In this document: positions 219 through 7,013 of the stretch, piece after piece
Position numbering within the stretch: position 1 is the stretch's first letter
Layout of the letters: each line of letters starts with the position of its first letter
The notes under the pieces: model-generated
Databases searched by the model: none
What the model saw: only the letters and a program-made list of their open reading frames with translations
Told to the model about the DNA's origin: nothing
Translations under genes and position numbers: made by a program
Assembly (NCBI GenBank): GCA_030689585.1
Contig: JAUYFZ010000089.1
Location: 1 to 7,013, forward strand
From: Rhodocyclaceae bacterium
GTDB taxonomy: Bacteria > Pseudomonadota > Gammaproteobacteria > Burkholderiales > Rhodocyclaceae
Length of the DNA stretch: 7,013 nt
Direction of reading: 5' to 3'

Positions 219-941
219 ATGATTCAGCGCATCGTTAGCACTTGTTTGACCGCCGTACTTCTTGTTGCTTGTAGTGTTCAGGCAGATGAAGCTTCTGTCA
301 GAAAATCCATCGAACCTGTGTTGCAGAGCATGTTTGGGGCCGATTTCAAAATAGAAGCTGTGCAGAAATTACCCCCGCTGGATCTGTACGAATTGCAGGT
401 GGGTGATGACTTGGCCTATACGGATGAGAAGGGAAGTTTTCTCATTCTGGGGAGCGTGATTGATCTGAAATCCAAGAAAAATCTGACGGAAGAGCGTAAA
501 AACAAGCTGTCGCAAATTAAGTTTTCTGATCTTCCGCTGGATCTGGCGATCAAACAGGTCAAAGGTAACGGCAAACGGGTGCTGGCGACCTTTGAAGATC
601 CCAACTGCTCCTATTGCAAGAAACTCGCCAAAGAATTGCAGGGGATGACGAATATCACGATTTATACCTTCGTCTATCCTATTTTTCCCCAGTCCAGCGG
701 TATCGCCAAGGCGATCTGGTGTGCTCCGAATCGTGCGAAGGCTTGGAATGATTATTTGATTAACGGCATCTCTCCCGCTGAAGGAAAATGCGATACCTCC
801 GGGGTCGACAAGATCGTGGCTGCCGGTAAAAAACTCAATATTCGCGGTACGCCCGCGCTGTTCTTCGCCGATGGTTCCCGCGTGCCAGGGTATATGCCTA
901 CGGCTCAACTGGAAGAAACACTGAATCGCTTGACAAAATAG
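219..941 (+). CDS. dsbC: DsbC, periplasmic thiol:disulfide isomerase
   Basis: This 240-residue protein (E. coli DsbC has about 236) is a DsbC-family isomerase, which rearranges wrong disulfides in secreted proteins and is kept reduced by DsbD. Residues 1-22 form a signal peptide, with a plausible signal peptidase I site after V20-Q21-A22. The N-terminal dimerisation domain covers about 23-90 and a linker leads to a thioredoxin fold from about 110. The active site is C130-S-Y-C133 in the family context DPNCxYC. The cis-proline is in the T211-P212 motif (RGTPALFF). C168 and C191 match the second, structural cysteine pair. All key residues are present. The signal peptide also contains L15-V16-A17-C18, which fits a lipobox, so a lipoprotein form cannot be excluded. 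The start is set by GGAG at 210-213. The gene has its own promoter and is followed 2 nt after its stop by an inserted mobile element. Confidence 0.95.
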   Translation: MIQRIVSTCLTAVLLVACSVQADEASVRKSIEPVLQSMFGADFKIEAVQKLPPLDLYELQVGDDLAYTDEKGSFLILGSVIDLKSKKNLTEERKNKLSQIKFSDLPLDLAIKQVKGNGKRVLATFEDPNCSYCKKLAKELQGMTNITIYTFVYPIFPQSSGIAKAIWCAPNRAKAWNDYLINGISPAEGKCDTSGVDKIVAAGKKLNIRGTPALFFADGSRVPGYMPTAQLEETLNRLTK

Positions 942-943
942 GC
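936..943. repeat. Left copy of the 8-bp target-site duplication
   Basis: AAATAGGC is identical to 1098-1105 and lies flush against the left terminal inverted repeat. It contains the dsbC stop codon TAG (939-941). Exact 8-bp copies touching both ends of the element are the signature of transposition. Confidence 0.85.
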
Positions 944-958
944 GTAACTACTCAGGTC
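944..958 (+). repeat. Left terminal inverted repeat of the MITE
   Basis: GTAACTACTCAGGTC is the perfect reverse complement of 1083-1097. The match ends abruptly after 15 bp, and further complementarity inward is imperfect. Confidence 0.9.
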
Positions 959-976
959 CGGTCGGAACACAGCTCT

Positions 977-997
977 CCTCCCCCTTCAAGGGGGAGG
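977..997. terminator. Left G/C-rich palindrome, probable 3' stem-loop of the dsbC mRNA
   Basis: CCTCCCCCTT and AAGGGGGAGG flank a central C987, making a perfect palindrome. Its stem would form in the dsbC transcript about 36 nt after the stop codon. There is no T-run on the plus strand after it, so it is not a canonical intrinsic terminator. It could still stabilise the 3' end or assist termination. Confidence 0.5.
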
Positions 998-1050
998 CGG
1001 GGAGGGGGATGGGGGGAAAAATTCCGCGTAAAACCCCATCCCCACCCCAG

Positions 1051-1071
1051 CCCTCCCCTTGAAGGGGAGGG
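1051..1071. terminator. Right G/C-rich palindrome, probable 3' stem-loop of the dehydrogenase mRNA
   Basis: CCCTCCCCTT and AAGGGGAGGG flank G1061. On the minus strand it forms about 34 nt after the dehydrogenase stop. G-rich sequence follows, with a TTTT only 13 nt further on (plus-strand 1030-1033), so termination is plausible but not canonical. Confidence 0.5.
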
Positions 1072-1082
1072 AGATTGACACC

Positions 1083-1097
1083 GACCTGAGTAGTTAC
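1083..1097 (-). repeat. Right terminal inverted repeat of the MITE
   Basis: GACCTGAGTAGTTAC is the exact reverse complement of 944-958 and lies flush with the right copy of the target duplication. Confidence 0.9.
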
Positions 1098-1105
1098 AAA
1101 TAGGC
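1098..1105. repeat. Right copy of the 8-bp target-site duplication
   Basis: AAATAGGC repeats 936-943 exactly. Its last base, C1105, is also the first plus-strand base of CTA (1105-1107), the stop codon TAG of the minus-strand dehydrogenase gene. Confidence 0.85.
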
Positions 1106-4100
1106 TACAACAACACCCGTTCGATTCCTCCGGCGTTGATCTGGCGCACCGTGTCTGCTTGCCAGTCTTCGCCTAGGAGGTGTCGCGCCAGTTCAACCAC
1201 GACGTAGTCGACTTCAATATCGGTATCTTTTCGGAACCGAGATAGTCCTTGCAGGCAACTGGGGCAGGTGGTGAGCAATTTCACTTTGCTCCCTATTTTT
1301 TCGACCCCTGCCTCAATTTCCTGCTGTTTGCGGAATCTGACCTGGGTGGACACGTCGGGACGCGTGACTGCCAGCGTGCCGGATTCACCGCAGCATCGGT
1401 CTGAGAGGTCAATGGGTTGCCCCATGAGTTCGGAAATGAGTCGGGTGGGTTGGGTGGTTTTAATCGGCGTGTGGCAGGGGTCGTGATAAAGATAGCGATG
1501 GTTGGACTGTTCAAGTCGAACCCCTCGTTCACGCAAATATTCATGGATATCGAGCAGGCGACAACCCGGGAAAATCTGGTCGAACCGATAAGTCAGAAGC
1601 TGATCTAGGCAGGTTCCACAGGAAACGATGACCGTTTTGATGTCCAGATAGTTCAACGTATTGGCGATGCGATGAAAAAGCACCCGGTTGCGCGTGGTCA
1701 TTTCCTGACCCTGACCCGCTTCGCCGCTGGCGGCTTGCGGATAACCACAGCACAGATACCCGGGGGGTAACACGGTTGTCACGCCCAGATTGAAGAGGTG
1801 GGCCAGTGTCGCCAAACCAATCTGGGAAAACAGACGCTCGGAACCGCACCCCGGAAAATAAAAAACGGCTTCTGAGTCTTCCGACGCTTTTTGAGGATGA
1901 CGAATCACCGGAATCATGTCGTTTTCTTCCATGCCCAGTTGAGCACGCAAGGTGCGCGAGGGCATCTGGCTGGGCAGGGGCTTGTTGAGAAAGTGAATGA
2001 TCTGCGCTGGAATCGAAGGACGACCCGAGGTGGCAGGAGGGTGGCGCACCGTGTTCCGAACAGGGGCGAATGAACCCGCCAAGGCGTGCCCCATGCGTTG
2101 CGCCGGATAGCCCCAAGTCACCAGACCGGTTCGCAGGGCTTTAATCGTGGTCGCATCGGTGGCATTCAAAAACGCCATGGCGGAGGTGGCCCCCACGCCT
2201 TTAGGGCGCGATTGCCGAGCCAGTAACGTGCGCATCAGCATCGTGACATTGCCGAAATCAATATCGACAGGACAGGGTTTGACGCAACGGTGACAAACGG
2301 TGCAATGGCCTGCCACATCCTCGAATTCGTCGAAATGCGAAGCGGAAATCCCTCGGCGGGTCTGTTCCTCATAGAGGAACGCCTCAATCAACATTGAAGC
2401 CGCTAAAATTTTGTTGCGCGGTGAATAAAGCGAGTTGGCACGAGGCACATGGGTCGAACAGACGGGTTTGCATTTTCCGCAGCGCAGGCAATTCTTGATC
2501 ATGTCCGCCAGCGTGCCAATCTCGGATTGCTCCATGATGAGCGATTCAATACCCAGCAAGGCGAACGAGGGCGTGTAGGCGTTGTCCAAATTGCCCCCTG
2601 CCATGAGTTTGCCTTGATTGAACCGACCGTCAGGGTCAATGCGGTTTTTGTATTCCCTGAAGGGACGCATTTCCTCATCGGACATAAATTCCAGCTTGGT
2701 GATGCCAATACCATGTTCGCCGGAAATGACCCCGCCTAAAGAACGGGCCAGTTGCATGATGCGGGCCACGGTTCGGTACGCCGTGGCTAACATCTCGTAA
2801 CGGTCTGAGTTGACGGGGATATTGGTGTGCACGTTGCCATCCCCCGCGTGCATGTGCAGGGCAACAAACACGCGGTCACGCAGAATGTCGTTATGCAGGG
2901 CGTCGATGGCTTCCATGACGGGGCGGAACAGGCTGCCGTCGAAAATTGTTTCCAGCCGGACGCGAAGCTCATGTTTCCAAGAGATACGCAAGGTGCGGTC
3001 TTGGAAAGCAGAGAAATGCACCTCCAGATTATCGAGAATGGATTGCCAGCGCGCGCGGGTTTCCCCCACCAGCGACCTGGCTTGTTCACGTCGATCTCCG
3101 ATCAATTCGACCTTGTCAAGGTTGGTATCCCCCGCATGGAGGGGCAATTCTCCCGTTAAAAATTCATCTAACGCGTCGCACAGGGCCAGTTTGTTGGCCA
3201 TGGACAGTTCAATGTTGATGCGCTCGATTCCATCGCAATAATCCCCCATGCGAGGCAGCGGAATGACGACATCTTCGTTGACCTTGAAGGCGTTGGTATG
3301 GCGGGAAATAGCCGCCGTGCGGGCACGGTCAAGCCAGAATTTTTTGCGCGCTTCCGGCGATACCGCCACGAATCCTGCTCCCCCATGCGAAGCGGCGAGG
3401 GCGACCACGTGATCCACCGCCTCCATGACGGCGGCTTCTTCTTCACCGACGATATCGCCGATCAACACCATTCGAGGACGCTCGGAACGTTTTGCTTTGG
3501 TCGAATAACCGACCGCTTTGACATAGCGTTCATCCAAGTGCTCAAGCCCCGCCAGTTTTGCCTCTCCCGATTTGAAATAATCGGTGATCTTGACGATGCT
3601 AGGCACGGCATCCCGAACCTGTCCGAAAAATTCCAGGCAAACCGTGCGCACCACCGGCGGCATTCGGTGCAACAACCAAACCGCGGACGTGATAATGCCA
3701 TCACACCCTTCCTTTTGAATGCCCGGCAGACCGGCAAGGAATTTGTCGGTCACATCCTTGCCCAGTCCGGCTTTGCGGAAGATTTTGCCCGGAATGGAGA
3801 GGAATTCTTCACGGGTTACCCCTCCCTCGTCGGTCAGGGTTTTGAGTCGGAACGTGACGATTTCCTGTTCGTGAATCTTGCCCAGGTTGTGACCAATACG
3901 CTCCACGTCCAGCCAAAACCCCTCTGGCGTCACCATGCGCCAGGAAACGAGGTTGTCCAGTGCCGTCCCCCATAACACGGCTTTCTTGCCCCCCGCATTC
4001 ATGGCGATGTTGCCGCCGATACAAGACGCATCCGCAGACGTGGGATCGCAGGCAAAGACACGACCGGCCTCATCGGCACGCTCCATCACGCGCCGGGTCA

Positions 4101-4842
4101 CGACCCCGGCCCCCGTGCGGATCGTGGCGTAAGAAACCTCCACCCCGGGCAAGCGGGATTCCTCCACCGCCCCCATGTCCATCAACTTTTCGGTATTGAT
4201 GACCGCCGACAGGGGAGATAACGGTATCGCGCCGCCGGTATAACCGGTTCCCCCGCCGCGCGGAATGATGGTGAGCTTCAAGGCGATCAGCTCACGCACC
4301 AGCGGAGCAATTTCTGTTTCAGAATCGGGCGTCAGCACCACGAAGGGCATTTCAACCCGCCAGTCCGTGGCATCGGTAACGTGAGCAATACGAGTCGCCG
4401 CATCAAACCGGATGTTGTCGCATCGGGTATGACGACAGAGGCAGTTTTTGGCTCGATGGCGCAAGCGGGTCGTCTCGTCAAACCAGTGTTCAAAGTTCCG
4501 CACGGCGATGCCGGCCGCATCGAGCAAAGCGGCCACCGCCTCATTGCCTTGACGACGACGCTCGATCTCCGTCAGCCGATGATGCAGCGCACCGATCAGC
4601 GCAGATCGTCGATCCGCGTGGGCCAGCAAATCGTCTTCCAGTGTCGGGTTGCGACGCACCACCCAGATATCGCCCAACACTTCGTAGAGCATCCGTGCCG
4701 AACGACCGGTGACCCGTTGCGTGCGCAGTGCATCGAGCTGTTGCCAAGCCGCTTCGCCTAACAACCGGATAACAATTTCACGGTCAGAAAAGGACGTGGT
4801 GTTATAGGGGATTTCACGTAAACGAGCGGTCATCATGCCCAC
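1105..4842 (-). CDS. Fused FAD-linked oxidase / 4Fe-4S 2-hydroxyacid dehydrogenase (DUF3683 type)
   Basis: This 1245-residue protein joins a GlcD/YdiJ-like flavin dehydrogenase to a GlcF-like iron-sulfur part. It probably oxidises a D-2-hydroxyacid such as lactate, glycolate or 2-hydroxyglutarate and passes electrons through Fe-S clusters to the respiratory chain. The substrate cannot be read from sequence. Residues about 8-140 are a DUF3683-like N-terminus. FAD-binding motifs are [12 protein letters not shown] (194-205) and CDPTSA...[10 protein letters not shown] (265-285). The FAD-oxidase C domain shows [10 protein letters not shown] (663-672) and SGEHGIG (707-713). Two ferredoxin-type cluster motifs follow: C785, C788, C791, C795 and C847, C850, C853, C857. 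Two cysteine-rich CCG domains end the protein (C999, C1031-C1032, C1075/C1078; then C1123, C1150-C1151, C1193/C1196). There is no signal peptide or membrane span, so it should be cytoplasmic and perhaps membrane-associated. The listed start is a GTG directly after the upstream stop. ATGs at 4836 and 4833 are alternatives, the latter 5 nt after AAGTGG. The gene appears intact and co-transcribed with the HD-GYP gene. Confidence 0.92.
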
Positions 4843-6957: not shown

Positions 6958-6969
6958 ACAATCACGGCT

Positions 6970-7013
6970 CTATGTGGTTTGTAGTGGGTAATCGAAGCGG
7001 TTGTTGCGGCCTC
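6970..7013 (-). CDS. Possible C-terminal end of a minus-strand gene, cut by the window edge
   Basis: One minus-strand frame reads GRNNRFDYPLQTT and then TAG (6970-6972). Its codons mostly end in C near the window edge, as in real genes of this window, and it would converge on uppP with a 12-bp gap. A second frame is also open to the edge and stops at 6954-6956, so the call is tentative. I do not recognise the protein from so few residues. Confidence 0.3.
   Translation of the reverse strand, partial: GRNNRFDYPLQTT

Follow-up and report, generated by a model that had tools for sequence, protein, structure and literature searches.

The Locus and the Inserted Element

The window, which is the whole 7,013-nucleotide stretch of DNA that was analysed, carries a DsbC-like gene and a gene for an FAD-linked oxidase / Fe-S protein that converge on a short inserted element (Table 1). 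The first-pass annotation had read the 15-mer GTAACTACTCAGGTC at the left end of this element, its exact reverse complement at the right end and AAATAGGC flush against both flanks, and every coordinate was borne out base for base. No open reading frame of 60 aa or more in the ORF list lies over 944-1097, and a search of the window against Rfam returned a tRNA and nothing else. When folded, the 154 bases formed a single hairpin of -105.8 kcal/mol (z -11.57), which was equalled by 0 of 200 shuffles.

Table 1. Features at and around the element in the window.
Feature	Position	Strand	Basis
Upstream DsbC-like gene (DsbC_N + Thioredoxin_2), frame unbroken	219-941	+	ORF list, domain matches
Left copy of the 8-bp target duplication, AAATAGGC; includes stop codon 939-941 of the DsbC-like gene	936-943		Sequence, ORF list
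Left 15-bp terminal inverted repeat, GTAACTACTCAGGTC, IS66/ISBst12 type	944-958	+	Sequence, copy counts, end matches
Left half-core: palindrome CTCCTCCCCCTTCAAGGGGGAGG and G-rich arm	975-1014	+	Half-core matches elsewhere
Loop separating the half-cores	1015-1034	+	Fold
Right half-core: C-rich arm CCCATCCCCACCCC and palindrome CCCTCCCCTTGAAGGGGAGGG	1035-1074	+	Half-core matches elsewhere
Right 15-bp terminal inverted repeat	1083-1097	-	Sequence, complete copies
Right copy of the target duplication; last base within the stop codon of the minus-strand gene	1098-1105		Sequence, ORF list
Convergent FAD-linked oxidase / Fe-S protein gene (DUF3683, FAD_binding_4, CCG, DUF3400), frame unbroken	1105-4842	-	ORF list, domain matches

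The stop codon contained in the left duplication is TAG, and the right duplication overlaps the stop codon at 1105-1107 by its final base, which is that codon's first base on the plus strand. Both neighbouring genes end normally despite the insertion between their stop codons, and in the unoccupied site these convergent stop codons would have been separated by 1 nt. The best match of the FAD-oxidase protein in the plasmid collection had 59.9% identity, in records labelled Neisseria gonorrhoeae, which suggests a betaproteobacterial host.

Copies in the Host Genome

The host assembly (G000) is 1.71 Mb in 314 contigs and is 79% complete. With up to 2 mismatches allowed, GTAACTACTCAGGTC was found 63 + 59 times, compared to 1 + 1 for the same pattern read backwards, so the terminal repeats are not a product of chance. 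Of these 122 end copies, 96 were exact. The 65 host contigs that were read, with the window's own contig among them, hold 114 ends. They belong to 34 complete two-ended copies, and the other 46 ends stand singly; of the latter, 42 are no more than 320 bases from a contig end, at a break in the assembly. An 8-bp duplication was perfect at 20 of the 34 complete copies, had one mismatch at 9 and was absent at 5. The first-pass annotation had predicted many copies sharing the 15-bp ends, each with 8-bp repeats specific to its site, and this is what was found for 29 of the 34 (no more than one mismatch), with 5 copies lacking the repeat. Its further claim, that a complete MITE arrived here by transposition, is likewise supported by the 34 complete copies, the duplications and the lack of an ORF.

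The copies range from 80 to 305 bp, with unchanged ends. Two copies of 80-81 bp retain one palindrome, the right palindrome unit is present three times in copies of 230 and 232 bp, and the 305-bp copy contains a nested element. Mean identity among the 22 copies of 150-156 bp was 94.1% (77.0-99.4%). The window element thus has what is expected of a MITE: terminal inverted repeats, duplications that vary by site, a short non-coding body and multiple copies.

Some copies had unusual surroundings. At L133 (G000:C220, 1-182), a copy is followed by the 8 bases GCATTTTC, after which a second copy begins and runs for about 33 bases, an arrangement that looks like two copies with one common duplication. 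Two contigs that end in the element (L123 and L131; G000:C169 and C211) have the same flanking 8-mer, CATATTTT, and two others (L140 and L142; C280 and C289) have the matching flanks GGAAGATG and CATCTTCC. Since the flanking 8-mers are the same, each pair of contigs is probably joined via a copy of the element.

One other genome of the host genus was compared, the complete genome G001, and it had 0 copies of the end and 0 core palindromes, which argues against an old fixed repeat. Its matches to the two neighbouring genes were far apart, and no empty site was seen in it at this locus.

Terminal Repeats and the Likely Transposase

The exact end was present in 5 of 395 genomes of the family: the host, G019, G334, G345 and G324. 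In G019, it begins a 1516-bp element with a 477-aa IS66 transposase (PF03050, E 1.4e-45; zf-IS66). The two copies of this element that were read (L148 and L149) are identical at 1516/1516 bases; one is flanked by the duplication TTTCGAAG, and the other has no duplication. The element ends in GTAACTACTCAGGTC and GTAACTACTCAGTAG, which agree with the MITE ends at 15/15 bases on the left and over the first 12 bases only on the right. G334 and G345 (L151-L153) carry elements of 167-168 bp with the same end (0-2 mismatches), different insides and perfect 8-bp duplications. A wider search, which covered 84,980 named species with a single genome per species, for the exact pair of ends at a spacing of 105-134 bp returned 3 stretches, from Rhodoferax, Perlabentimonas and a deltaproteobacterial MAG, with 7/8, 8/8 and 7/8 duplicated bases, respectively.

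ISDge4, a member of the ISBst12 group whose transposition has been observed, is described with the ends GTGACTACTCAGCA and GTAACTGCTCAGCA and an 8-bp repeat (PMC12898284), and a passage on IS66 insertions describes flanking 8-bp repeats (PMC11946415). The matches to ISDge4 and to the G019 element indicate that the window ends are of the ISBst12/IS66 type. The likeness to the ISBst12 group of the IS66 family consists of the terminal repeat GTAACTACTCAG, or near it, and the 8-bp target duplication. However, the full-size form has a single transposase ORF, whereas the window element has none, is a tenth the size and has only the ends in common with it. No IS66 transposase (PF03050) was found in the 79%-complete host assembly, although control genomes gave matches, so the helper transposase is one that we infer. 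A search of the host and 5 relatives for a relative of the 477-aa transposase, run with no positive control, was also negative.

As described in a review of bacterial MITEs (PMC10969869), such elements are short and non-coding, have terminal inverted repeats and target duplications, and occur in tens of copies, mostly intergenic. The window element resembles them in all of this but differs in that its interior is a repeat common to other element types. The term IS66 is absent from the main text of that review. No described IS66-derived MITE was found in the titles, abstract openings and passages covered, with subscription papers largely outside, and full-text searches for the end sequence or the palindrome returned papers that, by their titles, were on unrelated subjects only.

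Insertion Sites

For tests of gene orientation, the element was removed before frames were called, and the calls were simple ORF calls rather than those of a trained gene finder. The 34 complete copies were placed in intergenic sequence (18), inside open frames (7) or at contig edges (9). A convergent setting was found for 8 of the 18 intergenic copies and for 41 of the 352 gene pairs used as comparison; Fisher's p was 0.0008 with an ORF cut-off of 80 aa and 0.0004-0.002 with three further cut-offs. Of 25 copies that could be tested, 10 had a duplication overlapping a stop codon, compared to 2.4% of random 8-mers. At tolerated sites, a stop codon was duplicated in 9 of 19, compared to 9.8% of tolerated A/T-rich 8-mers (called genes, p 3e-5). 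The 29 duplications with one mismatch at most were rich in A/T at the centre and frequently had G or C at their edges, in a profile counted on both strands and so symmetric by construction. The target is likely an A/T-rich 8-mer. The bias toward stop codons could have arisen in two ways: stop codons may match the preferred target, or insertions at stop codons may have the best chance of survival. At such a site, the codon is rebuilt by the duplication.

Alternatively, the host could retain the element because its strong hairpin, placed where convergent genes share their 3' ends, serves as a transcript end in both directions and halts or protects the two transcripts. The excess of convergent settings, the duplicated stop codons and the stability of the hairpin all fit this scenario. 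However, no terminator-like site (a G/C stem with a T run) was found in 850-1250, so the element does not qualify there as an intrinsic terminator. In a cruder count of 104 readable ends, 60 faced the 3' end of a gene and 44 faced a 5' end (p 0.14, not significant). The 7 copies inside open frames also do not fit, and a target preference suited to stop codons accounts for the bias equally well. We therefore consider retention as a transcript end to be unlikely.

One Core Within Several End Types

Core blocks were counted in 85 host contigs (516 kb). There were 131, of which 66 adjoin the window's end type (type A), 28 adjoin contig edges and 37 adjoin other sequence, with at least one of these 37 (L135, 9157) being a copy of the window element missed by the filter. 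Single-linkage clustering of the core flanks gave one chained group; end types were set by eye and then counted. Besides type A, the host core lies between at least 4 further, dissimilar end types. Types B (TTARCGTGAAAYACA / CATGGCGAATCGCCACCCCGC), C (GGCTCTATGYGGTTTGTAGTGGG / AATTACGAGACTTGTTTGTCC) and H (TTGCGAAAGTTCTYG) stand beside host cores; for C, the outer boundaries were not found and no duplication was seen, and for H a duplication was present in 0 of 2. Type D (CTACCGTATGCACACA) had a 10-bp duplication that was perfect in 1 of 3 pairs, had one mismatch in 1 and was absent in 1. Type E (CATTCCATTACCCATAAGTCG) had a 9-bp duplication that, in 7 readable pairs, was perfect in 3, had two mismatches in 2 and had five mismatches in 2. 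These lengths were chosen after trying 8-11 for D and 8-10 for E. In two other genomes, G015 and G009, the core lies between CAGGGCAATCGCATGAA ends; by eye, the pair at L159 has a 10-base repeat with one mismatch and the pair at L175 has none. Duplications of 8, 9 and 10 bp suggest different transposases, although D and E could come from one transposase family. The other end types may resemble those of ISAs1, ISL3, IS4 and IS200/IS605, but we do not claim these names for them.

An arm or tip of the core was found within 110 bp inside the end in 103 of 105 cases for A, 17 of 22 for B left, 13 of 13 for B right, 10 of 10 and 5 of 5 for C, 7 of 7 and 5 of 5 for D, 13 of 13 for E and 5 of 5 for H, compared to 3.8% of random pieces from the same contigs. 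The 40-base half-core, with up to 4 mismatches, was found inside 72 of 92 ends of type A, 18 of 32 (B left), 10 of 15 (B right), 4 of 10 and 5 of 5 (C), 6 of 7 and 4 of 5 (D), 4 of 11 (E), 5 of 5 (H) and 5 of 6 (CAGGGCAATCGCATGAA); shuffled insides always had at least 17 mismatches. These associations are partly by construction, because it was the sequence adjoining cores that was inspected to define types B, C, D, E and H, and because the contigs were picked for their ends or cores. Type E alone was then searched for by its end only. This gave 41 ends, and in the 30 places for which loci were given, the core was present in all 25 ends with at least 60 bp readable inside.

One copy of E has inserted into a short copy of the window element, at its palindrome tip, with the duplication CCTTGAAGG. 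Once E is removed, 79 bp remain that are organised like the 80-bp copy in L109, so the window-element family provides an empty site for E. The core may have come to be shared through repeated capture, through nesting followed by deletion or through gene conversion.

No account of one core in several end types was found in the titles, abstract openings and passages covered, which included few subscription papers. The Tn3-derived TIMEs (PMC4133298) are similar in that miniature ends acquire new insides, stay mobile and form mosaic elements. In contrast, TIMEs have one set of ends with various insides, whereas the window family has one inside with several dissimilar sets of ends.

Distribution of the Core Across Genomes

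When the whole element was searched as DNA against 41 genomes, 6 of the 40 other than the host gave matches, only in parts of element positions 26-142, and no match in those 6 spans a whole terminal repeat. The core palindrome CCCCTTSAAGGGG occurs 532 times in the 1.7-Mb host genome. In the family, 43 of 150 genomes have it, the host included, with 210 in G042, 121 in G060, 109 in G130 and 89 in G101; the reversed palindrome gave no more than 1 in any genome. It was found 0 times in G001 (host genus) and 0 times in G115, G152, G145 and G083, four genomes that belong to the same genera as core-rich ones. A class-wide search with the core arm pattern returned the host's own genome alone among 185. 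Plasmids gave one weak match, in Photobacterium, and phages gave none.

Stretches from G060, G042, G101, G127 and G095 carry the core without the host end types, and it often consists there of a pair of half-cores in inverted orientation around a variable loop. A motif check of 20 such stretches found none of ends A to E and no CAGGGCAATCGCATGAA; the 15-base H motif was matched once. ATTAGCAGGTYCCTT recurs 8 times beside the core in the G060 stretches, suggesting that the core may have its own ends there. The right half-core was matched at 40/40 bases once in the G042 stretches and once in those of G101 (0 matches with 50 shuffles). The left half-core, with up to 4 mismatches, was present in other end types and in G042, G101, G127, G095, G015 and G009, but not in the G060 stretches. 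The first-pass annotation was thus right about a complete MITE but missed that the G/C-rich palindromic inside is a much wider repeat, common to elements with other ends.

The bare core in these five genomes, an inverted palindrome pair around a variable loop, is REPIN-like, and the element could accordingly be a REP/REPIN-like palindrome spread by a tyrosine (Y1, RAYT) transposase, with incidental terminal repeats. With REP, REPIN and BIME sequences (PMC3116915, PMC2817692, PMC3733652), the likeness lies in the inverted pair, the high copy number and the patchy distribution. Core-bearing G158, G110, G126 and G015 also have 1-3 Y1 transposases. However, the window element differs from these sequences in lying within ends that have 8-bp target duplications, flush in 29 of 34 copies, and no Y1 transposase (PF01797) was found in the host or in core-rich G042, G060, G101, G130 and G123. 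Core-free G115 and G152 have 8 and 4 PF01797 matches; PF01797 is also present in core-free G001 and G083 and not in G145. No GTAG tag was seen by eye beside the palindromes. For the element as a whole, the REPIN reading is disfavoured, and we hold it to be quite improbable.

That the mixed ends around the core are an assembly artefact, from short-read contigs misjoined at palindromes, is harder still to credit: there are many contigs that end inside the elements, the contig start at L110 is a suspicious inverted repeat and the copy at L096 adjoins a piece of end type E without a duplication, but chimeras would not yield the duplications that match across the elements of types A, E and D, and the core is also present in the single-contig genomes G042, G060 and G101, though without the host ends.

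Interpretation

Taken together, these data indicate that the window element is very probably a complete 154-bp MITE that an IS66-family (ISBst12-group) transposase likely moved in trans, and that its core is likely a separate repeat carried as cargo by several systems. The ends, duplications, copy number and lack of an ORF, together with the IS66 element of G019 that has the same end, carry the first part of this explanation. A transposase of this family, present in the host now or formerly, would mobilise 944-1097, and it may recognise the ends whatever the inside, as copies from 80 to 305 bp keep them. For the second part, the G/C-rich double-palindrome core lies inside elements with other ends in the host and is free of those ends in other genera; from this, it appears to be a separate repeat that became the cargo of several transposition systems. 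Taken alone, the window element is an ordinary, well-preserved MITE of a known transposase family, and the hairpin cargo is the notable part.

A likely cause of one core within dissimilar ends would be that the hairpin is readily captured or that it aids the movement of short elements. The core could further be a portable hairpin cassette that takes the ends of successive transposition systems, which we rate as possible at slightly under an even chance. The systems that share half-cores are the IS66 type (8-bp duplications), CATTCCATTACCCATAAGTCG (9 bp), CTACCGTATGCACACA (10 bp), CAGGGCAATCGCATGAA in relatives and at least 2 more. If the core is such a cassette, a repeat family has spread through a common cargo instead of through one transposase, and short elements may be good substrates owing to the hairpin itself. 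Whether a long hairpin between ends raises transposition becomes testable.

MITEs are usually classified from their ends, each being taken as a reduced form of a single parent IS. With a constant inside and variable ends, MITE interiors would be selectable and exchangeable across different transposases. The distribution also provides a case for bursts of non-autonomous repeats, with 532 core palindromes in one species and none in the other genus genome, and the duplication of stop codons would be one way in which dense insertion leaves a compact genome unharmed.

Other Arrangements of the Core

The window itself stops, at 6966-7013, inside a type C element (GGCTCTATGTGGTTTGTAGTGGGTAATCGAAGCGGTTGTTGCGGCCTC), 8 bases past a BacA-like gene; the same end type bears the core elsewhere in the host genome. 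Tandem core palindromes with a period of about 30-39 bp were seen at L199 (C2:70-238) and L117 (C150:62-164). In G042 and G101 (L224-L234), core palindromes are fused to another repeat (GGGGTTTCG...GAGCACTGCTC...), forming a further mosaic.
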